A stretch of 42,673 bases of DNA. Source: an uncultured Bacteroidota bacterium. GTDB lineage: Bacteria > Bacteroidota > Bacteroidia > Chitinophagales > Chitinophagaceae. The notes under the pieces were generated by a model, which saw only the letters and a list, made by a program, of their open reading frames with translations, was not told the DNA's origin and ran no database searches. Where the stretch lies: assembly GCA_903881585.1 (NCBI GenBank), contig CAIRTW010000036.1, positions 1-42,673 of the forward strand, given 5' to 3'. The position numbers and the translations under genes were made by a program. Of the stretch, positions 10,727 to 33,269 are shown piece after piece; the first letter of the stretch is position 1, and every line of letters begins with the position of its first letter.

Positions 10727-12703
10727 TTACTTGCTGCGTTCATTGAGTGTCATTACTACGCGACGGTTCTTAGCGCGGCCTTCGGCGGTTTCATTGGTCG
10801 CTATCGGCATTCTTGCACCACGGCCCACGGCTATGATCCTATCCGGGCTTACCCCTACTTTAATAAGATATGCTTTAACGGCCTGTGCACGTTTAAATGA
10901 CAGCAACTCGTTGCGCTCAACAGTACCCCTGCTATCGGTATGGCCTTCACAGATGATATAGAAATTATTATTTCTGCCCACTTCCAGCACCGCTTTTTCC
11001 AGTACCGGGTAAGAAGAAGGATGTATAGATGTTTTGCCAAACTCAAATAAGATAGGAGCTGTAATATCTGCTAATGGCGCCTGTTTGTTCTCAGTTGCAG
11101 CGGGTGGTGGCGGCGGTGGCGGAACAACCAGTGTAACGTCATTACCATTTCCTTTGCAATCGTTAACACCTACAACTATACCTGTATACGCGCCTGCACA
11201 CAAACCGGAAAGCGTCACCGCATTATCAGAACTTACAATGCCATGATAAGGCGTTTTTGGCGACCCGTTGTAGTTATAATTTACGGTCACCTTTTGGCCG
11301 GCTTTCAGGCCATTAATTGCAATTGCGCCGTCACATGCTTCAACCGATGTAGGGTTGGTCGTTGTTTCAGATATGTTTATTGGCGGGTTCACCAGTGTAG
11401 CCGGGGCAATGTCAACATGACGTTTGCCCATTGTAACGAACATTCCGGTATAAGCTCCTGCTCCCAGTTTTTCAATTTTCACTGTACCCTTCGGATCAAC
11501 AACCAGATCAGTAACCAGGCTGTTTGTCTTTCCATCCACGGTATAATTTACAGTCAATGGCTTGGCAGGAGGTAATCCGCTGAACGTGATGCTGCCATCT
11601 TTCGAGCCACAAGCCGTTGGGTCCACAGTGTTAACAACAGGATTGATCGGCGCTGCTTTTTTACCACCAAACAGGATGCGGATGCCTATATTACCGCCAT
11701 AAGACATGTCATTGCTCTTCGTAACATTATTCAGCACAGAGCTGTAATCGCCAACATTGTTTGTAAGGCGATAGTTGTTTGCCTGGCTATTATTAAATGG
11801 CTGGTATTGCAGATAACCACCAACAGTAAGCGCTACATGATCAGAAAAAAAGTAGTTAATGGCTGGTCTCACAATGAAGCCCACCGAGCCGCTGGTATAA
11901 GAAACAGTTCCTGATTTTTTGGTCGGGGCTTGGGCCAGTCCAACATTATAACCAAGGAGCTTTTCTGATGCAAAATATTGCTGTATCGTTTCGCCCTCAT
12001 GGCCGGTAGTGTTATTAAAGTGATTCTGCGTTATCTGCAGGTCTGTACCTGTAGGCGTTGCTGCATTATCGTAAACTGTGATCGTACCACCACTTGCCGT
12101 TGTTACATGCTGCACTATTTCTTCGTAGTCAAAAGTAGCATTGGTGTTATACATGTTCTTGATGCTCACATTGTACAACACGCCCAGATCGGCAGTAAAG
12201 CCAAATCTCTTTGAAAACCTGTCCTTATATTTCAACACTATCGGTATGTTCACATTTGTGATCTGCAACGACTCTTTCACAGGCTGATTGGCAGTGATCA
12301 CCTGCCGCGATACTTCACCTGTCTGGTCTGTGGACTGGAACTGAACATGAAACTGATCCAGTGTAGCATCGCCGCTTTGGGCCAGGTACATAATACCCGC
12401 GCCAATGCCAAAATGATTACTGTTGCCAAAGAAATAACCCAACTGCAGATCACCACCAAAGGACGTGCCATTGGTGAACTTCAAGTTGCCCAGGTTCACA
12501 TCACCCAGCGCGTTAAGGTAGCTGCCGAGTGAATTTCCTGTTGTCATGTTCCTTGTCAGCACACCTCCCATCAGGTTCAGATCAATAGCCCACTTGCCCA
12601 TTTCGGCATCTTTTGGGTATTGCTTTTTTGTTGAATCCTTCATTTGGGCAGTGGCCGATAACATCCCATTGGCTGCTATCAACACGAAAAGTAATTTTTT
12701 CAT
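10727..12703 (-). CDS. OmpA-family outer membrane protein with Ig-like repeats
   Basis: A 658-residue outer membrane protein. The signal peptide is MKKLLFVLIAANGMLSATAQ. Residues ~35-350 look like a large beta-barrel (alternating hydrophobic strands, GxGxGIMYL-type segments). Two related ~80-residue Ig-like units follow, each with a CxxxDGxI start and an LxAGAYTG centre. A Pro-rich linker (VVPPPPPPPAA) leads to a C-terminal OmpA peptidoglycan-binding domain at ~555-655, with ILFEFGKTSIHPSSY, CEGHTDSRGTVERN, LSFKRAQAVKAYL and GRGARMPIATNETAEGRAKNRRV all present. It should anchor the outer membrane to the cell wall. The gene starts 24 bases after the stop of the Gly-rich surface protein, so the two are probably one operon and may be functional partners. 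Confidence 0.88.
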   Translation of the reverse strand: MKKLLFVLIAANGMLSATAQMKDSTKKQYPKDAEMGKWAIDLNLMGGVLTRNMTTGNSLGSYLNALGDVNLGNLKFTNGTSFGGDLQLGYFFGNSNHFGIGAGIMYLAQSGDATLDQFHVQFQSTDQTGEVSRQVITANQPVKESLQITNVNIPIVLKYKDRFSKRFGFTADLGVLYNVSIKNMYNTNATFDYEEIVQHVTTASGGTITVYDNAATPTGTDLQITQNHFNNTTGHEGETIQQYFASEKLLGYNVGLAQAPTKKSGTVSYTSGSVGFIVRPAINYFFSDHVALTVGGYLQYQPFNNSQANNYRLTNNVGDYSSVLNNVTKSNDMSYGGNIGIRILFGGKKAAPINPVVNTVDPTACGSKDGSITFSGLPPAKPLTVNYTVDGKTNSLVTDLVVDPKGTVKIEKLGAGAYTGMFVTMGKRHVDIAPATLVNPPINISETTTNPTSVEACDGAIAINGLKAGQKVTVNYNYNGSPKTPYHGIVSSDNAVTLSGLCAGAYTGIVVGVNDCKGNGNDVTLVVPPPPPPPAATENKQAPLADITAPILFEFGKTSIHPSSYPVLEKAVLEVGRNNNFYIICEGHTDSRGTVERNELLSFKRAQAVKAYLIKVGVSPDRIIAVGRGARMPIATNETAEGRAKNRRVVMTLNERSK

Positions 12704-17131: not shown

Positions 17132-20100
17132 TTATTTCCGGACCACAAAATGCAAAACATGTTTTTTACGCTCGAGGGAATCGGGAACGTCACCTTGAGA
17201 AATAGTAAAAAGGTAAATGCCATTGGCCAATGAATTGGTAAGCTCTACCTGTTTGCTGAACCGCCCATTCGATACTTTAATCAACTCGTTATGAACAACT
17301 TGACCAAGCATATCGGTAATTTCAATGGAGATAAAACTATCTTCGTGACCAGTACGTCCGGCAATAGTAAATTTTCCGTTATTGGGGTTGGGGACAAGCG
17401 TCAGTTCGCCGATATCATTTGTAACCTCGTTAACATCTGTATTATTAACATGGACGATCACTTGCGCAGTTCCTGATACCTCGCCACAAAGACTTCCGCC
17501 CGACGTTACACAGGAAACCGTATCATCATTTGCGAGGGTACTGATGATAAATGTATCCGTCACAGCACCGGAAACTGCAACACCATTTATTTTCCATTGG
17601 TAGGTAACTCCGGTACCACCGCTCGTAACTGTGGCAACAAGCGTATCCGGTTGTCCTGCTGCCAGAAGGGTGCCGGGATATGAAGCTATACTAACTGAAG
17701 GAGTGAGCAGCGGAATCACGGTTATGTTTACGTTATTGCTGCTAAACGCAGTATCTATAGAAAGACAATGATAATTACTGTGGATAACACAAAATATATT
17801 ATCGCCGTTGGAAGGAACATAAACAAAGGTACTTCCCCACCCTGCGTTAATACCATTCTTTATCCATCTGTAGGTGGGGAGCGAACCGCCGTTCACCGGA
17901 TCAGGAATAACCGTAGCCAGGTGTGTAGCACATACAGAGTCACCAGGGCTGACCGAGATCGATACGGAAGGTGCAACATCAGGCGTGGTGACAACTGTAA
18001 AGCTTGCAGTTGCTGTGGCGGGCATCGCACAAACAGCATCACTGGTCATCGTTACGGAAATGACATCTCCGTTTAGCGGCGAGTAACTGTATGCGCTGTC
18101 GCTACCGGCGATTCCCGCACTAACGCCATTCACATACCAATGGTATATCGGTGTGCTGCCGCCCGATGCCGGCAGTGCTTTAAAAGTAGCAACAGATCCG
18201 TTACACACTGTATCCCCGATGGTAGTGGTAACGGTAACAGAAGGAACCGAGACCGGGGTGACCCCAATAACAGCCGAGTCTGACATACTGCTGCTGCACC
18301 CGGTAATAATATTTACGGCAAGAACAGTATAAGTGCCTGCAGGAATAAGTGGCCCGTATATAAGGGCCGTGCCGGTTCCTGTATCGGCAGTAACGAATGA
18401 AGTACCATTATATAATTTATAGGTGATCCCTGTATCGGAACCATTTAGTTCTACTTCCTCACCCGTACCTCCGGCGCAATAATTCCCGCCACCTGTAACG
18501 TAAAAAGACACCGGCAACCCATTGACGGTAACAATAGCGGCGGCACTGCAGCCACTGGGCAATGAATAAGAAAGAACAGTTGTTCCTGACGCTACAGCAT
18601 TTGCATGACCGGATGCCGAACCGACACTTAGAACAGTTGTGGTACTACTACTCCAGGTACCACCGGGCGCAAGATCGCTGAACACATAGGATGATCCAAC
18701 GCACAAACCAGTAATTCCGGTTATAGGAAAAAGTGGGTTTACCGTTACTGTCTTTGTCACAAAACAACCGGTAGGCATTGTATAACTGATAGTGGTACCA
18801 CCACCCGAAACGCCCGTAACGATCCCGGTGGCTGAACCTGCACTGGCTATTGCCGGGTTATTGCTGCTCCATGTGCCGCCGCTGGTGGCATCGCTCATGT
18901 AAATAGAATAGCCCTGGCAAACGAGTGACGATCCGGTTATAGCTGCCGGGTATGAGTTAACTGTGATAACAGTTGACGTTGCACAACTGGTAGGCAACGT
19001 ATAGGTAATAGCAGTAGTACCAAGGGCGATACCTGTGGCAATACCCGACGAAGAACCAATAGTGGCTATAGCGGTAGTTGCAACACTCCACGCACCGCCA
19101 ACCAAAGTATCTGTAAAATGAGACACAGACCCGAGACAGACACTTCTGTTACCGGCGATGACTGATGGCAATGGGTTTACTACAAACAGCGCAAGAGTGG
19201 TGCAGCCTGTCGGCAATTCATAAGTAACAGAAACAGACCCCGCCAGCACACCAGTTACAATACCGGAACCGGAACCAACTGTTGCTATAGTATTATCGCT
19301 GCCGCTCCACGCGCCGCCTGCCGATACATCGGACAGGGTAACTGCTGCGCCTGCACAAACATGGGCCACGCCCAATATACCTGCAGGAGAAGCATTAACA
19401 GTAACATCAACAGTATTGATGCAACCAGTAGACAGCATATAAGTGATAACCGCATTGCCTGTTGACAGGCCGGTCACCAGCCCGGTGGAAGCGTTAATGG
19501 CAGCAACGGTTGGCGTTCCCGAGCTCCAGCTCCCGCTGCTGACACTATCACTCAAAGAATAACTGACCCCGGTACACAGCCAGGAGGGGCCGGAAATAAT
19601 GGCCGGCAACGGATCTATGGTAACAACTTTGACAGCAAAACAACCTGTGCCTAATGTGTAGCTGATAACACTGGTGCCGGAAGATACACCTGTTACAACT
19701 CCGGTTGTTCCGCCAACAATAGCGGCGATGGTATTGCTGCTGGTCCAGGCGCCACCCGCAGTTGCATCTGTGAGGGGCGATGTGAGACCGGCGCAAATGG
19801 CGAGGGTACCCGTTATGGATGATGGTGACGCAAAAACAGTTTCTGTAGCGGTAGCTATGCAACCGGTGGGCAAGGTGTAAGTAATAAGCGTAGTACCTGC
19901 TGCGATGCCCGTAACAATGCCGGTGGAACTGCCTATAGAAGCAATGCCTGCAGGAACAGTAATGCTCCAGTTGCCGCCGCCGGTTATGTCGCTCAAAGTA
20001 ACGGCGCTGCCTGTACACACATTCAGAACACCGGCAATGCCGGCAGGAAGCGGGTTAACCGTCACTATGGCCGTTGCACTGCATCCGGTCGGAAATGTGT

Positions 20101-23100
20101 AGGTGATGATAGCCGTACCGGCAGCTATGCCGGTAACAATACCCGACGTGCCAATGCTACCTGTAGCGGGAGAACCACTGCTCCATGCACCACCACCTGA
20201 GAGGTCGCTAAGCGCAACAGTCAACCCGGCACAAACATGCAGGGTACCTGATATCGCCGCCGGCAGTGGATTGACAGTGACCGTAGCCGCAACTATGCAA
20301 CCGGTGCCGAGTGTATAAGTAATACCTGCCACACCTGCGGTCATTCCGGTGATAACACCAGTACTACCGCCGATCGTTGCAATACTTCCCGCTCCCGGGC
20401 TCCATGTACCGCCGGCAGTCACATCCGAATAGATGGTGGTAGCGCCTACACATAGAGCTGAAGCCCCGGTAATCAGGGCCGGCAGCGGGTTTACGGTGAT
20501 CACAGTTGTATTGATACAGCCAGTGCTTAAGGTATAAGTAATTGTTGCAGTTCCGGCAGACATACCGGTCAAAGTGCCAGTCGCCGACCCGATGGTTGCA
20601 GTACCCGGCGTTCCCGAGCTCCAGCTGCCACCGGCAAAGGCATCGCTTAAGTTGATGGTAAGGCCCGCACAAACATCTGCAGCGCCTGTAATGGCCGCAG
20701 GCAGGGGGTTTACAGTTACCGGGCTTATGATAATACAACCTGTGGGCAATGCATAAGTGATAATGCCGACACCAGTCGCCAATCCGGTAACAATACCCGT
20801 TGAAGAGCCGATAGATACTATTCCGGGAGAGCTGCTGCTCCAACTGCCGCCAGTCGAAGGATCGGATAAATCAGTGGTCTGCCCTAAACAAACGGAACGT
20901 ATGCCGCCTATGGCCAGTGGTAATGCATTCACGGTAACGCCGGCTGTTGCAACACAACCCGTAGGCAGCATATACGTGATAACCGCTGTACCGGCAAGCG
21001 CCCCGCCAACTGTTCCGGTCCCTACGCCAACTACCGCAACTGAACTATTGCTGCTCGACCATACACCGCCTGTTGTAATATCTGTAAGGCTTGTGGTAGA
21101 TCCGGCGCAGACGTTTGTGATGCCGGTGATAATAGCTGGCAAAGGACTCACCGTGACGATTGCCGTTACCCGACAGCTGGTTGGTAAAGTATAAGTAACG
21201 AGCGCTGTACCCGTACTTATCCCCGTTACGATGCCCGTGCTACCGGCAACAGACAATACACCGGCACCAACGCTGCTCCATGTTCCGCCGGGTATGGCAT
21301 CAGTCAATGTAGTTGTAAGCCCGGCGCAGACCTGCGTAACGCCGCTGATAGCTGAGGGTAACGGGTCCACAAGAAACGCAATAGAATTTAAACAGCCAGT
21401 TGGCAAAGTGTAAGTAATTATAGCGCTCCCCGCTCCTGCCCCGGTCACAACACCTGTCGATCCGATCGAGGCAACCGAGGTATTACTGCTGCTCCAGGTG
21501 CCACCGCCGGTAATGTCCGTTAATGTGGTTGCCAGGCCATGACATATTTCTACCGTGCCGCCTATATTTGCAGGCAGCGGGTTCACCGTTACATTGGCGA
21601 ACGTGGTACAACCCGTACCTATAGTATAAGTAATGATCGTAGTACCCGCAGATATGCCCCTTACAATTCCGGTCACAGCATCTACAGTACCAACTACCAG
21701 GTTACTGCTTGACCAGCTGCCTCCCGCAAAAGCGTCGCTCAAAGAAGTTACAAGCCCGGTGCAGACAACCTTAGTCCCGGCAACAGAAGATGGCAATAAA
21801 TTGACTGTGATCACCGTAGTGGCTACACAGCCTGCGCCCAGCACATAAGATATGGTTGATGTACCCGAGGTGATGCCGCTTACCAAACCAGTGAGGGACC
21901 CTACAGTGGCTACGCTGGCAGTGCTGCTGCTCCATATACCGGCTCCGGTAACATCGCTGAGCGTGGTAGTATATCCCGAGCAAACATTGGGGTTGCCGGT
22001 GATGCCAGCCATGGTATTGACCGTAACCGTGACGCTGGCAATGCAGCCTGTGGGCAGCATATAAGTAATGTTATCCGTGCCCGCTGTGACACCGGCGACA
22101 ACCCCTGTTGCTGCAGCCACAGTTGCTATTGCGGCATTTCCACTGCTCCATGCGCCACCGGGAGTTACATCACTGAGGTTAGTAGTAAGCCCGACACAAA
22201 ATACCGGGTTCCCTGTTATTACTGATGGTAGCGGGTTGACCGTAATCATGGTAGTGACATAGCAGCCTGTAGATAAGGAATATGTAATGACGGCTGTACC
22301 TGCTGATGCGCCGGAGAGCAGTCCGCTAACCGAGTTAATAGTCGCTATGATAGGATCGCTGCTTGTCCATGCACCTGTGCCGGCGGCATCGCTCAATGTA
22401 AGAGCCGAACCCACGCACACCTGTGCAGGGCCCGAAATGGCAGCAGGCATTGGGTTCACCGTGATCACCTGCGACGCGATACAACTGGTAGGCAATGTAT
22501 ATATAATCGTTGCCGTTCCTGCAACATTGCCATTCACGGTACCGGTCACCGATGAAACACTGGCAACACCAATGTTCAGGCTACTCCACGTGCCTCCGGC
22601 TGATGCATCTGATAAATTTGTTGTTGAGGTGGCACAAACAAAGAATGTGCCTGTAATGACAGACGGCAATGGGTTCACTGTTACAATCGCGCTCGCAGAG
22701 CATCCGCCGCCAGTTGGGGCTGGAATAGTATAAATGATAGTAGCCGTTCCTGCAGAACCGCCGGTAACAATGCCAGTTGTGCCAACTGCTGCAATACCTG
22801 CATTGCTGCTGCTCCATGTACCACCACCGGTGGCATCAGTTAAAGCCGTTGTTAAACCCAGACAGACAGTTTTGCTTCCCGATACAATAGCAGGAACCGG
22901 GTTCACCGTAAGGGCATAAAAAGTGCTGCACCCGATCCCCGGCGCTATCGGCACTGTATATGTGATATTGGTTGTACCGGCAGTAACACCCATCACGTTT
23001 CCGGTTGCCGACCCTATCGCCGCAACGCCCATATTACTACTTGCCCACGTTCCCGGTGCAACAGCGTCGGTTAAGACAACTGTTGCACCCACGCATATTC

Positions 23101-26100
23101 CCGCAGGTCCGCCAATGGTGGGAGGCAATGCGCTAACCGAAACGGTTATCGTATTGATGCATCCCGTGCTTATCACAAAAGTGATCACAGCACTACCACC
23201 CGACACACCTAATAAAAGTCCGCTCCCGCTTACCATCAATGCCACTGCTGAGTTGCTGCTGCTCCAGGTACCACTCGCTGTTGCATCGCTCAGAGTTATT
23301 GTTGATCCAACACAAACATTCGCACCGCCTGTAATTGCTGCCGGAATTGGCTGAACCGTAACGACAGCAGTGGTGATACAGCCTGTTGGCAACGTATAAG
23401 TGATGTTAGCAGTTCCTGCGGCAACGCCGGTTACAATACCACTTCCTGAAGCAACGATGGCAACTGTAGTATTGCCGCTGGTCCATGCCCCGCCCGGTGT
23501 GCCGTCGGTAAGGTTAGTGGTCGTGCCCGCGCAGAGCAGCCCGCTTCCGGTGATGCCCGGCGGCAACGGATTCACTGTGGCTGCAATGCTCACGCTACAG
23601 CCTGTGTTCAGTACATAACTGATCGTTGCTGTGCCGGCGGCCATGCCGCTCAGCAAACCCGTGGCAGAGCCAACGGCCGCTATCAATGAATTGCTGCTGC
23701 TCCAGGCGCCACCGCCCGTAGCATCGCTAAGCGTTGTTGTTAAGCCGGTGCAGACAAAAGGCGTACCGGATATACCCACCGGCACCGGATAGACAGTAAC
23801 CACCGAGGTAGCGAGGCAGCCGGTGCCTAGTTTATAAGTGATCGTCACAGTTCCTATTGCACTGCCGGCAATAATGCCTGTAGATACTCCTATTGGCGCT
23901 ACCAGTGGGTTACTGCTGCTCCATGCCCCGCCGGATGTAGCATCGCTCATAACCGTTGATGAGCCGTAGCAAAGATTGGCAGCTGCTGTAATTACAGCAG
24001 GCAGCGGGTTCACCGTCACCACTGTAGCCAGCGTGCAGCCAGGCCCTAAAGAGTAGGTTATCGTAACCATACCCGCGCCGACCCCGTTTACTACTCCGGA
24101 TAATGACCCTACTGTCGCTATTGTGATATCACCGCTGCTCCACGTGCCGCCGCCGCCGAAAGCATCACTAAGGCTTGTGGAAAAACCCTGGCACACAAAC
24201 GCCGTCCCTGAAACCGATGAGGGCAAGAGGTTCACCGTAACAATGGTTGTAGTAATACAACCGGCGCCAAGTGAATAGGTAATAATTGAAGTACCGCCAC
24301 CGGCGCCAGATAACAACCCAGTGCTGGAACCGATCGTTGCAACTGCCGTATTGCTGCTGCTCCAGTTGCCGCTGCCTATGCTGTCTGTAAGCGTGGTAAC
24401 GCTGCCTGCACAAATGCTGGTAGTACCGTCAATGACCGATGGTTGTGGATTGCTGAAAAGAGTTCTTGTAGCAGCGCAGCCAGACGGAAACGAATAAGAA
24501 ATTGTTGTTGACCCCACCGATAGTGTATTCACGAGCCCGGTAGAGCCAATTGCTGCGACACCCACGTCGCTGCTGCTCCAGGTACCGCCAACCGAACCAT
24601 CGCTGAATGAAGTGGTAAACCCAAGGCAGACATTTGAATTTCCGGAGACAGGCGCTGGCTGGGAGTTCACCGTCACGCTAGTCATTACCCGGCAGCCTGT
24701 GGCATACCCATAGGTAATAGTAGTAGTGCCAATACCAACGCCGGTAACAACACCGGTAACCGACCCAACTGAGGCCACGCTGGTATTGCTGCTGCTCCAG
24801 CTGCCGCCGGCTACCGCATCAGTCAGATTTGAGGTGAGCCCCTGGCAAATAGTTGCCGGTCCTGTTATCGCAGCAGGCATAGTATTTACCGACATAGTAA
24901 ATCCCGCGGCACAACCATCGGTAAGTGTATAAGAGATAATGGTAACACCTGTGGACAAACCACTCACAATGCCGGATGCCGGGCCAATACTTGCCGCTAC
25001 TGTGTTACTGCTGGCCCACGAGCCGCCGCCAATAGCATCAGTCAAAGTAGTTAGTGACCCGGCACATATAGAGCCGGCGCCGCTGATCGCACCGGCTGCC
25101 AGGTTGACGGTCATTACAATGCTCACCACGCATGCGCCCGCAAGTGTATAAGTAATATTGGCCGTTCCGACAGACAATCCCACCGCAACACCGCTGCTTG
25201 CGCCGATCAATGCCACAGAAGTATTGCTGCTTGTCCAGGTACCACCGCTATATGGATCGCTCAGGATCGCAGCAGTTCCCTGGCAGATGCTCATGTTACC
25301 TGTCATAGCAGACGGAGTCTGATTAACAGTCAGTATTTTAGATGCAGTACACCCGGTTGGCAACGTATAAATAATGGTAACCGTTCCGGGAGTGGCTCCG
25401 GTCACGGCCCCACTTGATGCCACAGTAGCTACCGATGCGGCGCTACTGCTCCATGTGCCGCCACTCATGCCGTCCGATAATGTTATCGTAGCGCCGGTGC
25501 AAACATTTGACGCTCCCGATATCGTAACCGGCAGCGGGTTGATAGTGACTACAACGGTAATGACACAGCCTGTAACGCCATCAGTATAACTAACATTAGA
25601 AGTACCTGAGCTTACCCCTATCACAAATCCGCTGGAAGAACCGATAAATACGGTTGACGTATTGCTACTCAGCCATGTGCCTCCGGTTGTCGCATCGGTA
25701 AGCGTAGTTGTAGCGCCCTGACATATGCTCTTTGTTCCGGAAATTGCCGGGGGCAACGTATTCACCGTCACGTTAGTAAATGTAATACATCCTGTAGCGG
25801 CCGTATAGGTGATGTTTACGGTACCGGCAATAATACCCGTTACCGTGCCTGAGGAAGAACCAACTGTGCCCACCAGCATATTACCGCTGGCCCATGTACC
25901 ACCGGCAGTTCCATCACTCAGTGTGGTAGTGAGGCCGGCACAGACAGCCAGGTTACCGCCAATCGTCATCGGCAATGGGTTTACAGTTATTGTCTTTGTT
26001 GCAGTACAAGTGGTAGGCAAAGTATAGATGATCGCAACCGTGCCGGAAGCAATTCCCGTCACTATCCCGGTAGTGCCATCTATGGTGGCCATCAGCAGGT

Positions 26101-29100
26101 TTCCGCTGCTCCACCCGCCGCCGCTGCTGGCATCTGTAAGGTTTATCGTCAAGCCCGCACAAACCGCATTCGCGCCATTGATCACACCGGGCAATGGATT
26201 GACGGTAACTGTTGCCGTAATAAAGCAGCCAGTTACCAGTGTATAAGTAATGATAGTTGTCCCCGCACTGACGCCTGTTACAACGCCCAGGCCAGAGCCA
26301 GTTATTGTAGCCACAGAACCGTTACTGCTCGACCATGTTCCACCCGGTGAGGTATCGCTAAGGCCTGTCGTTCCGTTCACACAAACCTGCAGGTTGCCGA
26401 GAATTGCTGCCGGGAGTGGATTTACGGTTACAATGGCAGCTGCGATGCAACCTGTTGGCAAAGTATAAGTGATCCCGGCAGTATTAGCTGCAACCCCCGT
26501 TACGAGACCGCTGCCTGATGCTACTGTCGCAATAGTAACGTCACTACTGCTCCATGTCCCGCCTGCAGGCAGGTCACTTAACGAAGTAGTCAACCCGGCA
26601 CAGACCGTGCGGGTGCCGTTTATTGCTGATGGCAGCGGATCAACGGTCACGATGCGGATGATCTGGCAACCTGTGGCCGACAATTGGTAGGTAATAATTG
26701 AGGTACCGGCAGACACCCCTGCAAGGGTACCCGATGCAGGGCCTATTAATGCGATGCTGGTGTTACCGCTGCTCCACACGCCGCCGCCAGTGGCATCGGT
26801 GAGCGTAGTAACCGCGTTCACACATAACTCGGCATTGCCACTTATGGCAACAGGAAGTGGGTTAACTGTAAAATTTGCTGTAGCTGTACAACCTGTAGAG
26901 AGCACATAAGATATAGTTGCCACACCTTGCGCCAAGCCCGAGATCACCCCTGTTCCGGCTGCGGTTGCTACCGGCAGGTTATTGCTGCTCCATGTACCGC
27001 CTGACACCGCATTTGTGAGATTCGTTGTTAAGCCGGCGCATACGCTCATCACCCCGGTGATGGGGTACAAAGGATTAACGGTAACCACCCGGCTTATAAT
27101 ACAGCCTGTGCCGATGGTATAGGTAATAATTGCTGTTCCGGTAGACACCCCCAAAACGGTGCCGGAACCGGAGCCGGTTGCCGCAACCGCGGGCGAACCC
27201 GAACTCCAGGAGCCGCCGCTGGTGGCATCACTCAGATTAGTAGTCTGTCCCATGCACACAGTTGCCGTGCCCAAAATAGAAGTGGGAAGCGGGTTTACAG
27301 TTACTACAGTTGTCGTGAAGCAGCCAGCGCCTATCGTATAAGTTATCGTTGCGGTTCCGGCAGTTACGGTATTAATGACACCACTGCCTGTTCCTATTGT
27401 GGCTACCCCGGTGTTACTACTGGTCCATATGCCACCGCTTGTAGATGGGTCACTGAGGCTGCCAGCCGCGCCCAGGCAAATACCTCTCGCACCGGATATT
27501 GCTCCGGGCGACAGATTAACGGTGACTAAAGTTGTTACTGCACATCCTGAGCCAAGCGCATATGTGATCGTGTCTATGCCCGGGGCAACGCCACTGATAA
27601 CACCTGTACCGGCAACAGCAGTTGCTATACCCGCGTCTCCGCTGGTCCACGTGCCGGGCGTTGTAATATCACTCAGGGTTGTAAAAGTTCCGACACAAAT
27701 ACTCATGTTGCCGGTTATCGGTGACGGAGATGGCGTAAAATTAACGGTACTGTGGGCAATGGCTGCGCAGCCGCTGCTCGTAGCGGTGACGGTATAAACG
27801 ATCGTCCCTGTAGTCGTTATGCTGGGTGGATGCACATACACCGTATCATCTGTGGTACCCGCCGAATAAGGGATCGTTAGTCCTGCATCTGCAAAAAGAT
27901 CTGTGCCTGGTGACCATGTCGGCATTACGACCGACGAAATTCCCGTGATCAGAACGTTGTCGAGCGCCCAGAAATCACCCCAGTGGGTATAATAATAGTA
28001 TCGTATCCTTAAATTCGGCTGCCCGAGGTAGGCATTAAGCGAAAATGTCTCGCCCACGAAACCGGTAGCCGTTCCTATGCTCGGCCCTACAAAATTCTGT
28101 ATGGTAGCCCAGCTGGTGCCGCCGTCTGTAGAAATATCGAGATCTACATTGAAGTCACCGGAAGGCCAGTATTGATAGGCCTGCTGAAATGTAAGTGTGG
28201 CTCCCGAATACCCGGCCAATGAAAAAACCGGTGAGATCAGCTTCGAGGAAGTAAACGAGGTAGAAGGAGAAGTATCGGCATTTGACATGGCAAAGGCGCT
28301 ATAGTCAGGAGAAAAGAAAGCGCCGAACACATTAGTATAACCGTTGCCGCACACTTTCCATCCTCCGCCGGGCAACATGCCGCTGCCTCCGGAATTGTCA
28401 ACCGTCCACAGGCCAAGCCCGCTGTTAAAAGTCTGTGCTAATACCGTAGCGGGCGCAGGTGTCCCGGTTGCAACAAGCGTTGCCACCCCACCGCTGCACA
28501 GCGTGGCAGCTGTAGCAGAAAGCACAGGGGCCAGTGGCGGATTATTAACCGTAAACGACATCGCGGACGGGCACCCGGCAGCTGTATATGTTATTATCGC
28601 AGTTCCCACTGCTACGCCCGAAACATTGCCCGAGGCATCTACCGATGCAACTCCGGTATTGCTGCTGCTCCATGTACCACCGCCTGTAGCGTCGCTGAGC
28701 GGGGTTGTTCCGCCTATGCAGGTGGCTGAAGAGCCTGCAACCGGCGGCGGGTCGGGGTTCACAACCATAGTGATCGTACCTGAGGTGCCTGTAGTTGTGG
28801 TAACACAACCGCTTGATGTAGTCATTACACAATACACCGTATTCCCGTTCGTCAGGCTGGTATTGGCGTAAGTAGCGCCCGTAGCCAGGCTCGTTCCGTT
28901 CAGGTACCACTGAAAAGATGGCGTCGCTCCGCCGTTTACCGGATTTGGTGTGAAAACAACATTTGTCCCGGCACATATAGGGCCACTCGGCGATGGGGTG
29001 ATGCTTACAGACGGCGTAACTGGAGTCGTTAATGAAAGACTACCGAAATTCGGAGTGCCTGAGCCGGGTATAACCCCCGCGATCGTGCCACCGGTTACCG

Positions 29101-29617
29101 ACGTACATAAAATACTCCCCGCGCCCGATCCGCCAGATGTAGCCTGTACCTGCAGCCCCATGATCTGCACCACATCATATCCATCTATGCCATTTACACT
29201 TATGTTTACCGTTAATGTTGTACTGGTAACGCTGCCAGTTATCGTATATACATTTGAACCGGTGATAAACCCGAACGTAACCGGCGACGCCGGATTGAAC
29301 TGCCAGCCCGCCGGAGCAGTAAGCACTACAACATCAGTGCCTGGCCCAAAAATATCGGCGGTGTTCCCTTCCGTAATTGTAATTGCTCCCAGTGTAGTGT
29401 AACCAGGTGCAGTGCCACCCACGGCTTTGCTGCTGCATATAGATGTGCCGCCGCTAGCCGGAGTAACGGTCACAGCAGCGTAGCCCTCGCCGCAAATACA
29501 GCAAAGAATAACCAGCAAAAGGAACCTTATAGCTTTAATACGGTCATTCTTACCTGCAACTACAGCTAAAAATGATCGTAAAGAAAGTTTTCTCATGAAT
29601 AAATTGTTTATAACCAA
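17132..29617 (-). CDS. Giant Ig-like (BIG2-like) tandem-repeat surface protein with T9SS sorting domain
   Basis: A 4161-residue protein in one uninterrupted frame. ATG at 29596 (MRKLSLRSFLAVV...) is the likelier start, giving a long-n-region signal peptide ending near CGEGYAA; 29617 is the longest frame. The N-terminal 635 residues hold a secreted beta-domain, an Ig-like unit with QWYLNG, one isolated copy of the main repeat, and a jelly-roll-like domain (FNSGLGLWTVDN...WALDNVLITG), a fold often used for carbohydrate or protein binding. Residues 637-3709 are 42 tandem ~73-residue repeats. Residues ~3710-4060 hold further Ig-like units with HWYVNG, YRWIKNG and YQWKING. The last ~85 residues (LTLVPNPNNGKFTI to LHFVVRK) are a T9SS type A domain. 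The repeats are Ser/Thr/Gly-rich and nearly uncharged. The likely role is a surface adhesin or extended stalk; no enzymatic domain is seen. Confidence 0.88.
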   Translation of the reverse strand: MVINNLFMRKLSLRSFLAVVAGKNDRIKAIRFLLLVILCCICGEGYAAVTVTPASGGTSICSSKAVGGTAPGYTTLGAITITEGNTADIFGPGTDVVVLTAPAGWQFNPASPVTFGFITGSNVYTITGSVTSTTLTVNISVNGIDGYDVVQIMGLQVQATSGGSGAGSILCTSVTGGTIAGVIPGSGTPNFGSLSLTTPVTPSVSITPSPSGPICAGTNVVFTPNPVNGGATPSFQWYLNGTSLATGATYANTSLTNGNTVYCVMTTSSGCVTTTTGTSGTITMVVNPDPPPVAGSSATCIGGTTPLSDATGGGTWSSSNTGVASVDASGNVSGVAVGTAIITYTAAGCPSAMSFTVNNPPLAPVLSATAATLCSGGVATLVATGTPAPATVLAQTFNSGLGLWTVDNSGGSGMLPGGGWKVCGNGYTNVFGAFFSPDYSAFAMSNADTSPSTSFTSSKLISPVFSLAGYSGATLTFQQAYQYWPSGDFNVDLDISTDGGTSWATIQNFVGPSIGTATGFVGETFSLNAYLGQPNLRIRYYYYTHWGDFWALDNVLITGISSVVMPTWSPGTDLFADAGLTIPYSAGTTDDTVYVHPPSITTTGTIVYTVTATSSGCAAIAHSTVNFTPSPSPITGNMSICVGTFTTLSDITTPGTWTSGDAGIATAVAGTGVISGVAPGIDTITYALGSGCAVTTLVTVNLSPGAISGARGICLGAAGSLSDPSTSGGIWTSSNTGVATIGTGSGVINTVTAGTATITYTIGAGCFTTTVVTVNPLPTSILGTATVCMGQTTNLSDATSGGSWSSGSPAVAATGSGSGTVLGVSTGTAIITYTIGTGCIISRVVTVNPLYPITGVMSVCAGLTTNLTNAVSGGTWSSNNLPVATAAGTGVISGLAQGVATISYVLSTGCTATANFTVNPLPVAISGNAELCVNAVTTLTDATGGGVWSSGNTSIALIGPASGTLAGVSAGTSIITYQLSATGCQIIRIVTVDPLPSAINGTRTVCAGLTTSLSDLPAGGTWSSSDVTIATVASGSGLVTGVAANTAGITYTLPTGCIAAAIVTVNPLPAAILGNLQVCVNGTTGLSDTSPGGTWSSSNGSVATITGSGLGVVTGVSAGTTIITYTLVTGCFITATVTVNPLPGVINGANAVCAGLTINLTDASSGGGWSSGNLLMATIDGTTGIVTGIASGTVAIIYTLPTTCTATKTITVNPLPMTIGGNLAVCAGLTTTLSDGTAGGTWASGNMLVGTVGSSSGTVTGIIAGTVNITYTAATGCITFTNVTVNTLPPAISGTKSICQGATTTLTDATTGGTWLSSNTSTVFIGSSSGFVIGVSSGTSNVSYTDGVTGCVITVVVTINPLPVTISGASNVCTGATITLSDGMSGGTWSSSAASVATVASSGAVTGATPGTVTIIYTLPTGCTASKILTVNQTPSAMTGNMSICQGTAAILSDPYSGGTWTSSNTSVALIGASSGVAVGLSVGTANITYTLAGACVVSIVMTVNLAAGAISGAGSICAGSLTTLTDAIGGGSWASSNTVAASIGPASGIVSGLSTGVTIISYTLTDGCAAGFTMSVNTMPAAITGPATICQGLTSNLTDAVAGGSWSSSNTSVASVGSVTGVVTGVGIGTTTITYGYATGCRVMTSVTVNSQPAPVSGNSNVCLGFTTSFSDGSVGGTWSSSDVGVAAIGSTGLVNTLSVGSTTISYSFPSGCAATRTLFSNPQPSVIDGTTSICAGSVTTLTDSIGSGNWSSSNTAVATIGSSTGLLSGAGGGTSIITYSLGAGCITTTIVTVNLLPSSVSGTAFVCQGFSTSLSDAFGGGGTWSSGDITIATVGSLSGVVNGVGAGMVTITYSLGPGCTLATVVTVNPLPAVITAAANLCYGSSTVMSDATSGGAWSSSNPLVAPIGVSTGIIAGSAIGTVTITYKLGTGCLATSVVTVYPVPVGISGTPFVCTGLTTTLSDATGGGAWSSSNSLIAAVGSATGLLSGMAAGTATISYVLNTGCSVSIAATVNPLPPGITGSGLLCAGTTTNLTDGTPGGAWTSGNTTVAIVASGSGIVTGVAAGTANITYTLPTGCITTAVVTVQPIPAAITGGANVCVGSTITLSDATASGTWSSSNSAVALMVSGSGLLLGVSGGSAVITFVISTGCINTITVSVSALPPTIGGPAGICVGATVVLTDAVAPGTWASSNMGVAAIGSATGNVMGVTAGTTNITYTVPIAPGIGCSTFYALTVNPVPAIVSGSKTVCLGLTTALTDATGGGTWSSSNAGIAAVGTTGIVTGGSAGTATIIYTIPAPTGGGCSASAIVTVNPLPSVITGTFFVCATSTTNLSDASAGGTWSSLNIGVASVSSVTGTVNGNVAGTATIIYTLPTSCIASQVITVNPMPAAISGPAQVCVGSALTLSDAAGTGAWTSSDPIIATINSVSGLLSGASAGTAVITYSLSTGCYVTTMITVNPLPSVITGNPVFCVGLTTNLSDVTPGGAWSSGNAAIATVAAATGVVAGVTAGTDNITYMLPTGCIASVTVTVNTMAGITGNPNVCSGYTTTLSDVTGAGIWSSSTASVATVGSLTGLVSGITSGTSTISYVLGAGCVATTVITVNLLPSSVAGTKVVCTGLVTSLSDAFAGGSWSSSNLVVGTVDAVTGIVRGISAGTTIITYTIGTGCTTFANVTVNPLPANIGGTVEICHGLATTLTDITGGGTWSSSNTSVASIGSTGVVTGAGAGSAIITYTLPTGCLNSIAFLVDPLPSAISGVTQVCAGLTTTLTDAIPGGTWSSVGAGVLSVAGSTGIVTGISTGTALVTYTLPTSCRVTAIVTVSPLPAIITGITNVCAGSTTSLTDITTGGVWSSSNSSVAVVGVGTGTVGGALAGTAVITYMLPTGCVATAGVTVNALPLAIGGIRSVCLGQTTDLSDPSTGGSWSSSSPGIVSIGSSTGIVTGLATGVGIITYALPTGCIIISPVTVNPLPAAITGAADVCAGLTINLSDAFAGGSWSSGTPGTATIGSATGTLTGMSAGTATITYTLSTGCINTTVITVNPLPALITGASALCVGATTIYSDVTAGGTWSPGAGSIATIGGSTGVITGMTAGVAGITYTLGTGCIVAATVTVNPLPAAISGTLHVCAGLTVALSDLSGGGAWSSGSPATGSIGTSGIVTGIAAGTAIITYTFPTGCSATAIVTVNPLPAGIAGVLNVCTGSAVTLSDITGGGNWSITVPAGIASIGSSTGIVTGIAAGTTLITYTLPTGCIATATETVFASPSSITGTLAICAGLTSPLTDATAGGAWTSSNTIAAIVGGTTGVVTGVSSGTSVISYTLGTGCFAVKVVTIDPLPAIISGPSWLCTGVSYSLSDSVSSGSWSSGTPTVAAINASTGLVTGLSTGNAVITYMLSTGCINTVDVTVNASPAGILGVAHVCAGAAVTLSDVSAGGAWSGSDNTIATVGSGSGIVTGVLAGSVSVTYELPTGCTTLALFVVNPLPSVIAGNRSVCLGSVSHFTDTLVGGAWSVATTAIATIGSSSGIATGIALGTTAITYTLPTSCATSTVITVNSYPAAITGSSLVCQGYSIYMSDATSGGTWSSNNPAIASAGSATGIVTGVSGGGTTISYTMPTGCFVTKTVTVNPLFPITGITGLCVGSSYVFSDLAPGGTWSSSTTTVLSVGSASGHANAVASGTTVLSYSLPSGCSAAAIVTVNGLPVSFYVTGGGNYCAGGTGEEVELNGSDTGITYKLYNGTSFVTADTGTGTALIYGPLIPAGTYTVLAVNIITGCSSSMSDSAVIGVTPVSVPSVTVTTTIGDTVCNGSVATFKALPASGGSTPIYHWYVNGVSAGIAGSDSAYSYSPLNGDVISVTMTSDAVCAMPATATASFTVVTTPDVAPSVSISVSPGDSVCATHLATVIPDPVNGGSLPTYRWIKNGINAGWGSTFVYVPSNGDNIFCVIHSNYHCLSIDTAFSSNNVNITVIPLLTPSVSIASYPGTLLAAGQPDTLVATVTSGGTGVTYQWKINGVAVSGAVTDTFIISTLANDDTVSCVTSGGSLCGEVSGTAQVIVHVNNTDVNEVTNDIGELTLVPNPNNGKFTIAGRTGHEDSFISIEITDMLGQVVHNELIKVSNGRFSKQVELTNSLANGIYLFTISQGDVPDSLERKKHVLHFVVRK
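18491..27709 (-). repeat. 42-copy tandem repeat array (about 219 bp, 73 codons per unit)
   Basis: I counted 42 consecutive units between GNMSICVG and FYVTG. The consensus runs VCxGxTTxLSD, GGxWSSSN, VAxIGSxTGxVTGV, AGTAxITYTLPTGC, then VTVNPLPxxITG. All 42 units keep a Cys near the start, a Trp after the GG, and a second Cys about 45 residues later; the Asp in [ST]D is kept in 41 and is Asn in unit 4. Unit length varies by only a few residues; units 22 and 23 carry small insertions before the second Cys (PIAPGIGC, PAPTGGGC). Units are clearly diverged from each other in sequence, so this is not a recent duplication or an assembly collapse. The fold is probably a bacterial Ig-like (BIG2-like) beta sandwich with one disulfide. 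Confidence 0.88.
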
Positions 29618-29927: not shown

Positions 29928-32900
29928 ATGAACTATCGTAAAATCAATAACATCACAGGTTGGATCACCGGTGCAATCGCTTTTATTGTTTATTTAAAAA
30001 CTATGGAGCCCACCGTTAGCTTTTGGGACTGTGGCGAATTCCTCTCCTGTGCATACAAACTGGAAGTAGGCCACTCACCGGGGGCGCCATTCTTCATGAT
30101 GATGCAGCGCGTATGCTCACTATTTGCACCGGGCAGCACTGCCACCGGCGCGGCATCTGTAAGTACGCTGGGCACTGTTGGCGCAGCAACCATGATCAAC
30201 GCATTTTCTGCGCTCACCAGCGCACTGTCGATACTCTTCCTTTTCTGGACTATCTCCCATTTCGCTAAAAAGCTCGTAGTTGAAGGCAAAGCTGAGCCGG
30301 ATAACAACCAGATCACTGTTATTATGGGTGCAGCCCTGGTTGGCGCACTGGCTTACACTTTCTCAGATACATTCTGGTTTTCAGCAGTTGAGGCGGAAGT
30401 ATATGGTACTTCTTCTTTCTTTACAGCCATTACCTTCTGGGCGGTGCTCAAGTGGGAAGACGTAGCAGATAATAAACATGCCGACAGGTGGCTGGTGCTC
30501 ATCGCCTATCTCGTAGGTGTATCCGTATGTGTTCACCTGCTCAACCTTCTTACTATTCCGGCGGTAGCAATGGTCTATTATTTCAGGCGCTACCAGGCTA
30601 CATGGCTGGGAACCATACTGGCTTTTATAGTTGGCTGTGTCGTACTTGGTTTTGTTCAGTTTGGTGTTATACAGTATATTCCCCGGCTGGCATCTGTTTT
30701 TGATGTTGCCTTCACAAATAATTTCGGAGCTTCGTTTGACACCGGCGCCGTTTTCTTCCTGGTGCTTGTTACGGCTGTACTTGTTTTTCTGTTGTTCCTT
30801 GCCAAAAAGAAATCGTGGCCCGCACTGCACACCAGCACATTGTGCATTATATTTATAATTATAGGATATTCAGCTTACTTTTCAGCCATTATCCGTTCCC
30901 GTGCCGATGTTCCGATCGACATGACAAACCCCGACAACCCCATCAGCTTCCTTGATTATGTGGACCGGGAGCAGTTTGGCTCGCAGCCACTGTTCTTCGG
31001 CCAGTATTACAATAGCAACTATACTGAACTGGATACATCTAAGAAACTATACGCCCAAAACAAAATAAATGGGAAAGATGTATACGAAACAGTTGGTAAG
31101 AAAATGGAGGCTATCTATGGTACCGATCAGAACGGAGTTAGCCAAAGCCATTTCTTCCCTCGTATCTATGATGGTAACGACCCCGGACACGTAAGGTTTT
31201 ACAAGAGCTTCCTGGGGCTGGATGACAAAGACGAGCCCGGCTTCAGCGATAATATGAAGTATTTCTTCGGCTACCAGATGAACTGGATGTGGTGGCGCTT
31301 CTTCATGTGGAACTTCGCTGGCCGCCAGAATGACGTGGAAGGCCAGTGCGACCCGCAGCGTGGCAACTGGATTTCCGGTATCACTTTTATTGACCAGATG
31401 AGGGGCCTCGGTGATTCAGACAAGATGGGCTCCGGTTTAAGTGACAATGATGCACATAATAAGTTATACTTCCTGCCATTTATACTTGGCGTCCTTGGCC
31501 TGGTGTTCCAGTTCAACAAGAACAAGAAAGACGGTATTGTTGTCATGACCATGTTCTTCTTCACAGGTGCGGCAATAGGTATCTATCTGAATATGCCGCC
31601 ATTACAGCCCCGCGAACGTGATTACGCATTCGCAGGATGTACCTATACATTCGCTATATGGATAGGGCTTGGTGTGCTAATGGTGCATCAATGGTTCCGG
31701 AAGCTAACGCAAAGTCCTGCGGCTGCCTATGGCGCTATTGCCCTGTGCCTGGTTGCGGTACCAGCGCTTATGGCCAATGTAGAATGGAAAGACCACGACC
31801 GCTCTAAGAAAACCCTGGCCCGTGCAGTGGCCTTTAATACACTGTCTTGCTGTGCGCCAAATGCGGTGCTGTTCACCTTTGGTGATAACCAGACCTACCC
31901 GCTATGGTACATGCAGGAAGTGGAAGGATTCCGTAAAGACGTCCGTATCATCAATACCAGCCTGCTGGGCATTGATTGGTATATCGATCAGCTCAATTAC
32001 AAGGTTAATGACGCAGACGCCGTACCCATGATCTGGAAAAGAGAAGATTACATAGGCGACAGGCACAACTACGTGCAGTATTATGATAATCCGGCTAAGA
32101 AGATACCGAAGGACCAGTTTTTCAATCTTAGCGAGGTTTGCAACTTCATTATCAGCAAAGACCCGCAGAATATGGCGGGCCGCAGAGGCGGAGATGAGGT
32201 GAATTACATTCCGCTGAAGAACTTCTTTGTACCATCACTTAGCAAGGAAGAGTTAGTAAAGAGAGGCCTCATAAACGCCGCCGATTCAAACCGCGTTGTT
32301 TCTGAAATGAAGTGGGCTTATCCTAAGTCTGCGGCACAGAAAGGCGACCTGGCTATATTGAATATCATTGCAGCAGTTGCAAATGAAGGCTGGCAGCGCC
32401 CGCTGTATTTCGATGCAGGTCTGCGCACAGGCGATTATGGTGGCACCGGCTATTACCTCCATATGGAAGGACTGGTTTACCGCCTTATGCCATTTAAGTA
32501 CAATGACTCGGTGAAAGTGAACGCCCAGGTATTGGGAAGCATCAACACCCAGAAGGGTTATGATATGTTCATGAACAAATTCATCTGGGGCGGCGCCGAA
32601 AGGAACGACGTTTATTTTGATGAGCCTAACCGCCATGAGTTTGTGACCTACCGTATGGATGGTGCATTCCTGGCCAACCAGCTCGCAGCCGACGGTCAGA
32701 AAGACAAGGCAGTACAGGTACTGGATAAGGTGATGGCAGGCATCACAGAACACTCTTACTCATACGATTATACAGGCTACTTCATTGCAGCTTCCTACTA
32801 CAGGGCTGGTGCCCTGGCCAAGGCCGACAGCCTGAGCAGCAAAATAATGCGCAATGCAGATGTGGACCTGGCTTGGTGGGCTACCCTGCCCGATGGCAGC

Positions 32901-33269
32901 AAGATGGCGCAGAACGATGACGTAAGGCAGCAATTCCAGATCATGCAGTCGCTCGCGCAAATGGCTTCGCAAAATGGCGATGCAGCCACCGCAAAGTCAC
33001 TGGCAAACAGGATAGTAGGCCACGCAGAAAACTACGTGAGCTGGGTTGGTGGCCTTTCTGCGGAAAGCAGGGGGGCTATGGCTGATGATGTAAAACAAAA
33101 ATTCTATGTCATGCAGTCGCTCGCGCAAATGGAAGCCATGTCTGGCGACACCACATCTGCAAAACAAATAGGTATGAAGATGCAGAACCTTGCCCCTAAA
33201 GTAAGGGAGCTGCTCAATACCAAAAACAGCGGTGGAGGCCCCCAGCAGCAACAAGATGATGAACAATAA
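29928..33269 (+). CDS. DUF2723 (TMEM260-like O-mannosyltransferase family) membrane protein
   Basis: Large polytopic protein of 1113 residues. Residues ~10-620 contain about eleven hydrophobic segments and begin with the DUF2723 signature EPTVSFWDCGEF (27-38) followed by VGHSPGAPFFMM. The acidic residues D34 and E37 lie in the first external loop, where GT-C glycosyltransferases place catalytic carboxylates. The family (Pfam DUF2723) includes vertebrate TMEM260, which O-mannosylates Ig-like IPT domains; activity of bacterial members is inferred. A soluble C-terminal half (~640-1113) includes a TPR-like region with two ~56-residue repeats, and the protein ends in a Gln/Asp-rich tail. Length is normal for Bacteroidota members. 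It is divergent from the giant Ig-like repeat protein and is followed by a strong intrinsic terminator, so it is probably monocistronic. Confidence 0.88.
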   Translation: MNYRKINNITGWITGAIAFIVYLKTMEPTVSFWDCGEFLSCAYKLEVGHSPGAPFFMMMQRVCSLFAPGSTATGAASVSTLGTVGAATMINAFSALTSALSILFLFWTISHFAKKLVVEGKAEPDNNQITVIMGAALVGALAYTFSDTFWFSAVEAEVYGTSSFFTAITFWAVLKWEDVADNKHADRWLVLIAYLVGVSVCVHLLNLLTIPAVAMVYYFRRYQATWLGTILAFIVGCVVLGFVQFGVIQYIPRLASVFDVAFTNNFGASFDTGAVFFLVLVTAVLVFLLFLAKKKSWPALHTSTLCIIFIIIGYSAYFSAIIRSRADVPIDMTNPDNPISFLDYVDREQFGSQPLFFGQYYNSNYTELDTSKKLYAQNKINGKDVYETVGKKMEAIYGTDQNGVSQSHFFPRIYDGNDPGHVRFYKSFLGLDDKDEPGFSDNMKYFFGYQMNWMWWRFFMWNFAGRQNDVEGQCDPQRGNWISGITFIDQMRGLGDSDKMGSGLSDNDAHNKLYFLPFILGVLGLVFQFNKNKKDGIVVMTMFFFTGAAIGIYLNMPPLQPRERDYAFAGCTYTFAIWIGLGVLMVHQWFRKLTQSPAAAYGAIALCLVAVPALMANVEWKDHDRSKKTLARAVAFNTLSCCAPNAVLFTFGDNQTYPLWYMQEVEGFRKDVRIINTSLLGIDWYIDQLNYKVNDADAVPMIWKREDYIGDRHNYVQYYDNPAKKIPKDQFFNLSEVCNFIISKDPQNMAGRRGGDEVNYIPLKNFFVPSLSKEELVKRGLINAADSNRVVSEMKWAYPKSAAQKGDLAILNIIAAVANEGWQRPLYFDAGLRTGDYGGTGYYLHMEGLVYRLMPFKYNDSVKVNAQVLGSINTQKGYDMFMNKFIWGGAERNDVYFDEPNRHEFVTYRMDGAFLANQLAADGQKDKAVQVLDKVMAGITEHSYSYDYTGYFIAASYYRAGALAKADSLSSKIMRNADVDLAWWATLPDGSKMAQNDDVRQQFQIMQSLAQMASQNGDAATAKSLANRIVGHAENYVSWVGGLSAESRGAMADDVKQKFYVMQSLAQMEAMSGDTTSAKQIGMKMQNLAPKVRELLNTKNSGGGPQQQQDDEQ
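32941..33132 (+). repeat. 24-bp direct repeat inside the DUF2723 gene
   Basis: The same 24 bases (beginning TCATGCAGTCGC) occur at 32941-32964 and 33109-33132, spaced 168 bases or exactly 56 codons. They encode MQSLAQM in both copies, within DDV(R/K)Q(Q/K)F...GD..(T/S)AK units. This marks an in-frame duplication of a helical TPR-like unit. Confidence 0.8.

Follow-up and report, generated by a model that had tools for sequence, protein, structure and literature searches.

We consider a gene on the reverse strand of a 42,673-nucleotide contig (CAIRTW010000036.1, assembly GCA_903881585.1) from an uncultured bacterium of the Chitinophagaceae, a family of the Bacteroidota; this whole stretch of DNA is referred to as the window. 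The gene encodes a very long protein with an array of 42 immunoglobulin-like (Ig-like) units, each containing two cysteines (Cys) and one tryptophan (Trp). We denote the first Cys of a unit (C12, at the end of strand A') as C1 and the second (C63, in the FG turn) as C2. Across 240 proteins, C1 of unit n is kept or lost together with C2 of unit n+1 in all but 3 of 6162 adjacent unit pairs. We consider it likely that the protein is a type IX-secreted surface adhesin stalk whose disulfides follow the order C1(n)-C2(n+1).

Probable cysteine pairing between neighbouring units

Two sets of homologs are used. Set 1 holds the best 120 of the 1391 proteins of a first search, including the window's own copy (5080 units), and set 2 the best 120 of the 2776 shorter proteins of a second search (1475 units, with 27 excluded). 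When the Cys of set 1 are read from fixed columns, C1(n) and C2(n+1) are both lost in 90 pairs and discordant in 63; in discordant cases such as P0035 a Cys is shifted by one or two positions. With a relaxed definition that accepts any Cys in match columns 9-15 as C1 and in 58-68 as C2 (13 gapped units out of the 5080 are excluded), set 1 has 4763 pairs with both kept, 84 with both lost and none discordant. The same definitions, unchanged, give 1251 both kept, 61 both lost and 3 discordant in set 2. Other arrays in the source genome (five stretches, 169 units) follow the same pattern, with 159 pairs keeping both Cys, one keeping neither and none discordant.

The losses themselves can be followed unit by unit. 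There are 75 clear paired losses, in which unit n lacks only C1 and unit n+1 lacks only C2, in 40 proteins of the two sets. For every remaining loss of C1 alone (23 in set 1, 31 in set 2), no unit is recognised 64-88 residues downstream, and the remaining losses of C2 alone have no recognised preceding unit in 4 cases of set 1 and 35 of set 2, with two in set 2 that do have one.

The sequence-only reading of this DNA had supposed a disulfide within each unit, with the two Cys facing each other, which would give an ordinary disulfide-bearing Ig repeat. Most units do keep both Cys, and the losses of the two are associated in set 1 (4933 units with both, 25 and 42 with one only, 67 with none). 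The set-1 units that lack both Cys belong, among the cases listed, mainly to P0025, P0075 and P0110, which contain long runs without Cys. In set 2, however, the two Cys of a unit are unassociated (1250 units with both, 96 and 99 with one only, 3 with none), and only one Cys is kept in 67 units of set 1 and 195 of set 2. By eye, many of the listed Cys-less copies in P0025, P0075 and P0110 are nearly identical; such runs may still be duplicating, while the stapled ones are diverged.

Direct coupling analysis (mean-field, 5990 distinct unit pairs, 10153 column pairs; P0025, P0075 and P0110 excluded) points the same way. The pair C12(n)-C63(n+1) ranks first of all column pairs, whereas C12-C63 of the same unit has a z-score of -0.8 (rank 8867). 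When the Cys columns are masked and same-column pairs excluded, the top inter-unit pair is S15(n)-I64(n+1) (z 6.0, rank 47), whose two columns adjoin the paired Cys columns, followed by N72(n)-T61(n+1) (z 3.9, rank 92). Within the unit, couplings 9-67, 10-72, 11-69, 11-71 and, weakly, 12-72 set strand A' parallel beside strand G, so that C12 would fall beside positions 70-72 within the same unit. By this strand register the two Cys of a unit would be separated by some 7-9 residues along the strand, at opposite ends of strand G and of the domain. A disulfide within the unit is rejected on covariation and coupling, which are sequence-based rather than structural, and we regard it as very improbable.

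A bond that spans the linker, C2(n)-C1(n+1), would join the Cys that are nearest in sequence, 22 residues apart, and this pair shows a weaker coupling (z 5.5, rank 52). Against it, set 1 has 58 and set 2 has 112 discordant pairs of C1(n) and C2(n-1); we reject it and give it practically no credence. The Cys could instead act between chains, through lateral bonds with a stagger of one unit or through a metal bound at the joint, and covariation alone would presumably look the same for pairing within a chain and between chains. Against this, the non-Cys couplings suggest that the A'B turn of unit n meets the FG turn of unit n+1 at a joint of one chain, though these too could be contacts between chains, and losses of a single Cys occur where no neighbouring unit is recognised. 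A metal site would have two Cys per site only, and the whole array of 3071 residues contains 5 histidines. We consider an action between chains improbable.

The disulfide would then move to the joint between units rather than vanish. A large separation of the two Cys inside a unit, which the sequence-only reading had itself named as telling against its proposal, is what the couplings suggest, by way of strand register and not of a distance, and the covariation pairs C1(n) with C2(n+1) instead. We conclude that the earlier observation of the Cys was right and its assignment of the disulfide wrong: by their sequences, the domains appear to be bolted to one another.

The array and its relatives

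We turn our attention to the array itself, which follows the pattern Cys-x(15-16)-Trp-x(33-38)-Cys in 42 contiguous copies of about 73 residues. Successive first Cys are spaced by 72-74 residues, with two exceptions, where the spacing is 77 and 76. All 42 units conserve the two Cys, the Trp and a pair of glycine positions, and 41 conserve an aspartate, which is replaced by asparagine in U04. The uninterrupted run of 42 Cys-Trp-Cys units, and the count of 41 aspartates and one asparagine, had been noticed in the sequence-only reading and hold for the array at 18518-27730. The same reading took the aspartate to be often the sole charged residue and the array to be neutral, and these claims hold in part. 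Charges are few (82 of 3071 residues: 60 D, 4 E, 8 K, 10 R), but the net charge is -46, so that neutrality is approximate only, and the array is poorly charged and mildly acidic. Counting D, E, K and R, one unit has no charge, 13 have one, 17 have two, nine have three and two have four; the aspartate can be the sole charge in at most the 13 and not in the remainder.

The units match two Pfam families, PF25354 (Ig_NUP210_16th) with 320.3 bits against a gathering cut-off of 27 and Big_2 (PF02368) with 261.3 bits against 22.8. These scores exceed the cut-offs by so much that a chance origin of the array is excluded. We read the name of PF25354 as that of its seed, with no nucleoporin role implied for this protein. 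An AlphaFold2 model of three units, for which the input is 40 overlapping triples from the window, has a predicted local distance difference test score of 93 and a predicted template modelling score of 0.74. The solved structures that match it include Big_2 domains, NUP210, LigA, S-layer proteins and intimin, to which Foldseek adds GhpA. On this model and the profile scores, the units are best described as Big_2-type domains with a predicted Ig-like beta-sandwich, and the earlier view, a very long stalk of BIG2-like units that each carry two Cys, is supported.

Identity between units averages 47% with a maximum of 64%, and no lag between 1 and 21 shows a clear excess of it. Where two units share a residue with a 4-fold site, 17640 comparisons in all, the codon is the same in 29.5%, versus the 28.0% expected from codon use; synonymous sites between units are saturated. 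Neither the lags nor the 4-fold sites reveal a recent duplication within the array. The duplications are ancient and selection has preserved the pattern, and the near-random codon agreement bears out the corresponding claim of the earlier reading.

The next question is whether the number of units is fixed. Among 28 homologs picked by total length (4100-4260 residues, window included), a choice that is biased toward equal unit counts, 42 units occur in 7 proteins and 43 in 21, at identities down to about 44% and with nearly constant distances of the flanking domains. These counts would suit a unit number selected as a molecular ruler. Picking by architecture instead (a jelly-roll domain plus a C-terminal Ig profile, 362 proteins examined) gives 33 proteins, the window's own included, of which 7 have 42 units, 20 have 43, one has 39, one has 38 and four have 35. 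A strictly constant number is rejected by these shorter arrays. A profile of the N-terminal domain N1 was dropped as a criterion because it matched none of the 33 members, its own seed proteins included, and P0033 (43 units) was found by length only and missed by the jelly-roll and C-terminal Ig profiles. The tree of the non-array parts requires 5 changes of unit number where the minimum possible is 4. Units this diverged should hardly recombine, so that the number could be frozen without selection, which also argues against a ruler; we regard a ruler as doubtful. The unit number is conserved within clades and is not fixed.

Among the relatives' loci, which are recorded under Chitinophagaceae, Taibaiella, Flavipsychrobacter, Sphingobacteriales, Bacteroidia or uncultured Bacteroidetes, 42 units are found in L024, L025 and L028, 39 in L036, and 43 in L027, L029, L030, L031, L033, L034, L035 and L038, while others are partial. 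In L026 (9956-25025) a change of frame, which may be real or a sequencing error, splits the array gene into one piece with 26 array units and another with 16. Within the 42-unit group, the mean identity of units at the same place is 0.77 to 0.56, versus about 0.48 for all unit pairs. Between the 42-unit group and seven 43-unit proteins, no correspondence stands out, the diagonal identity being at or near the overall mean; an alignment of units beats 100 shuffles for P0033 and fails for P0053. Of 198 genomes searched in the phylum, 14 have a match to the unit profile (E 1e-8), source genome included. The jelly-roll profile has matches in 29 of the 147 genomes searched in the family (E 1e-3), with values below 1e-50 only in its own and one other; the one listed genome of the same genus has no match.

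The gene and its neighbourhood

The features of the gene and of its two downstream neighbours, all on the reverse strand, are as follows.

17132..29617 (-): gene for a protein of 4161 residues, counted from the TTG start of the open reading frame
29477..29596 (-): signal-peptide-like N-terminus, residues 8-47, called by eye
29033..29476 (-): N-terminal domain N1, residues 48-195
28754..29032 (-): Ig_7-like domain, Pfam Ig_7 with 21.2 bits, under the cut-off of 27.3
28535..28753 (-): U0, an isolated array-type unit (C300, C349), residues ~289-361
27731..28534 (-): Ig-like domain (C374, C617) with an inserted jelly-roll
about 27935-28459 (-): jelly-roll insert with a predicted MAM / gingipain cleaved-adhesin fold
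18518..27730 (-): array U01-U42, 42 Big_2-type units, residues 630-3700
18518..27730 (-): 41 proposed staples C1(n)-C2(n+1) inside the array
17420..18517 (-): C-terminal block of four Ig-like domains, the final one without its first Cys
17189..17392 (-): C-terminal sorting domain for type IX secretion, from the Pfam profile PF18962
12728..16909 (-): neighbour protein of 1393 residues with a type IX tail and an ALK_LTK glycine-rich domain
10727..12703 (-): OmpA-family protein with a sub-threshold match to an outer-membrane barrel

Translation more probably starts at the in-frame ATG at 29596, which would give 4154 residues, as in the database copy P0004. The tail scores 34 bits for PF18962 (cut-off 27) and 22.8 for TIGR04183, narrowly short of 23; by this sorting domain we class the protein as a putative cargo of type IX secretion, its tail being of type A. 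The source genome contains at least 150 type IX tails, one of which belongs to a 10,216-residue open reading frame (G000, contig 353).

The ends of the array can be compared with the proposed pairing. In N1, C61 is present in 28 of 28 aligned proteins and C171 in 5 of 28; its single invariant Cys, together with the last Ig-like domain that lacks a first Cys, would fit the two ends of a C1(n)-C2(n+1) chain. In the Ig_7-like domain C215, C263 and C271 are each kept in 28 of 28. In the flanking Ig domains, strand F carries Cys at positions 263 (28/28), 3943 (26/28), 4036 (28/28) and additionally 3855 (21/28), in the numbering of P0001. In each of the 28 proteins aligned, U0 starts 340-343 residues ahead of the array.

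The order of the two downstream genes is kept in L024, L025 and L028, the three 42-unit loci named above; the genes were not found in the 15 other loci of L024-L041, several of which are short. The repeat family of the 1393-residue neighbour has an early Cys in 659 of 660 units and a late Cys in 643 of 660, and by eye the first domain of that protein has the early Cys only. Upstream, a divergent gene (29928-33269) encodes a TMEM260-like protein O-mannosyltransferase (PF11028), which was not found in the 18 loci L024-L041.

A proposed stapled stalk and known systems

In the mechanism that we propose, the C1 of each unit, at the end of A', would be disulfide-bonded to the C2 in the FG turn of the unit that follows. 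Since each bond overlaps with the one after it, the bonds would form two interleaved covalent rails, one odd and one even. The rails would consist of G-linker-A' segments, 22 residues long, and leave the greater part of each domain bypassed. Domains could unravel under a pull only if disulfides break, so that the rod would be nearly inextensible and its joints locked, and the loss of one bond would come at a small cost. The calculated taut length is ~177 nm with bonds between neighbours, 354 nm with bonds within units and 1105 nm without bonds. The stalk probably carries an adhesin-like jelly-roll, and would hold this domain of MAM/cleaved-adhesin type, which lies near the N-terminus, away from the cell. 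The array, its predicted fold, the covariation, the saturated sites and the architecture and unit counts of the homologs are results of the analysis; we infer that the Cys are oxidised and bonded within one chain, and likewise the lengths, the surface location and the adhesive role.

Several points weigh against this picture. The bond pattern is inferred from covariation and coupling and not from an observed disulfide or a sulfur-sulfur distance, and the adhesive role is read solely from fold and layout. The two Cys of a unit are associated in set 1, as given above. The relaxed columns were defined after viewing set 1 and then fixed for set 2. Of the three exceptions in set 2, P0239 lies at a cut-off protein start, and P0192 and P0145 stand unexplained. 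Related sequences share losses, so that p-values overstate independence; the 75 paired losses fall into 30 clusters when grouped at 60% identity and into only 7 when grouped at 50%, although the lower threshold is about as high as the identity of any unit with any other. In the neighbour's repeat family, where losses are few, 13 of 558 pairs keep C1 without the next C2; in 12 of the 13 no following unit is recognised, and misalignment is suspected. The flanking C263, C423, C3943 and C4036 have no assigned partner. Finally, the term inextensible takes its measure from a native rise per domain that is general background.

If the reading is right, dozens of disulfides, one at each domain joint, would set this stalk mechanically apart from those described, as a construction that is redundant, cannot be extended and is sensitive to redox state. 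The rule predicts from sequence alone which Cys each unit should carry, chain ends included, and can be tested in many proteins and deposited structures. It might also express a general principle of giant Bacteroidota surface rods, whereby overlapping inter-domain disulfides form a two-rail ladder whose taut length is about its folded length, with no unfolding or stretching under load, and whereby the A'B/FG pair of Cys extends beyond Big_2 to flanking Ig_7-type domains and perhaps GhpA; on this generalization we find ourselves evenly divided.

To our knowledge, the Big_2 / BIG2 domains of known stalks (intimin, LigA, the S-layer protein SbsC) are usually without two Cys, whereas each array unit here has two that covary with those of the neighbouring unit. 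The tip jelly-roll is 18-21% identical to the K1-K3 domains of gingipain Kgp, with no Pfam match above cut-off. Periscope proteins are described as single-chain rod-like stalks of tandem domains, whose highly identical repeats vary in number, with recombination as the proposed cause (PMC9704523); unlike these, the present units are diverged and their numbers stable within clades. The joints of the stalks described there are stiffened by short linkers or intimate contacts (PMC9704523), and those of RTX adhesins by calcium ions in the linkers (PMC7493085). The RTX adhesins resemble our protein in having a long tandem beta-sandwich stalk with stiffened joints, and differ in that the stiffening is by calcium there and by the proposed disulfides here. 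SprF and PorG are reported to be disulfide-joined to GldK, and SprB to be about 200 nm long (PMC12635249); those disulfides are other bonds than the array staples proposed here.

A survey of fibrillar adhesins nowhere contains the word 'disulfide' (PMC8286594). A search of the open-access literature under the 'disulfide' spelling found no description of an inter-domain disulfide ladder; since the search covers open access and this one spelling ('disulphide' lying outside it), and much of the matched literature is without the term, this is weak evidence of novelty. A further likeness is to GhpA of the Aureispira grappling hook (PDB accession codes: 9flp, 9fls, 9flu, 9flv, 9flw, 9flx, 9fly and 9g8b), which is also a giant Bacteroidota protein of Ig-like repeats. 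The unit profile at E 10 does not have GhpA among its matches. The tip-region profile matches it in 14 stretches (E 2.2e-5), with Cys at matching places in the part of the alignment shown, and GhpA is among the top Foldseek matches of both models. GhpA is the most likely place where a disulfide ladder of this kind may already be visible.

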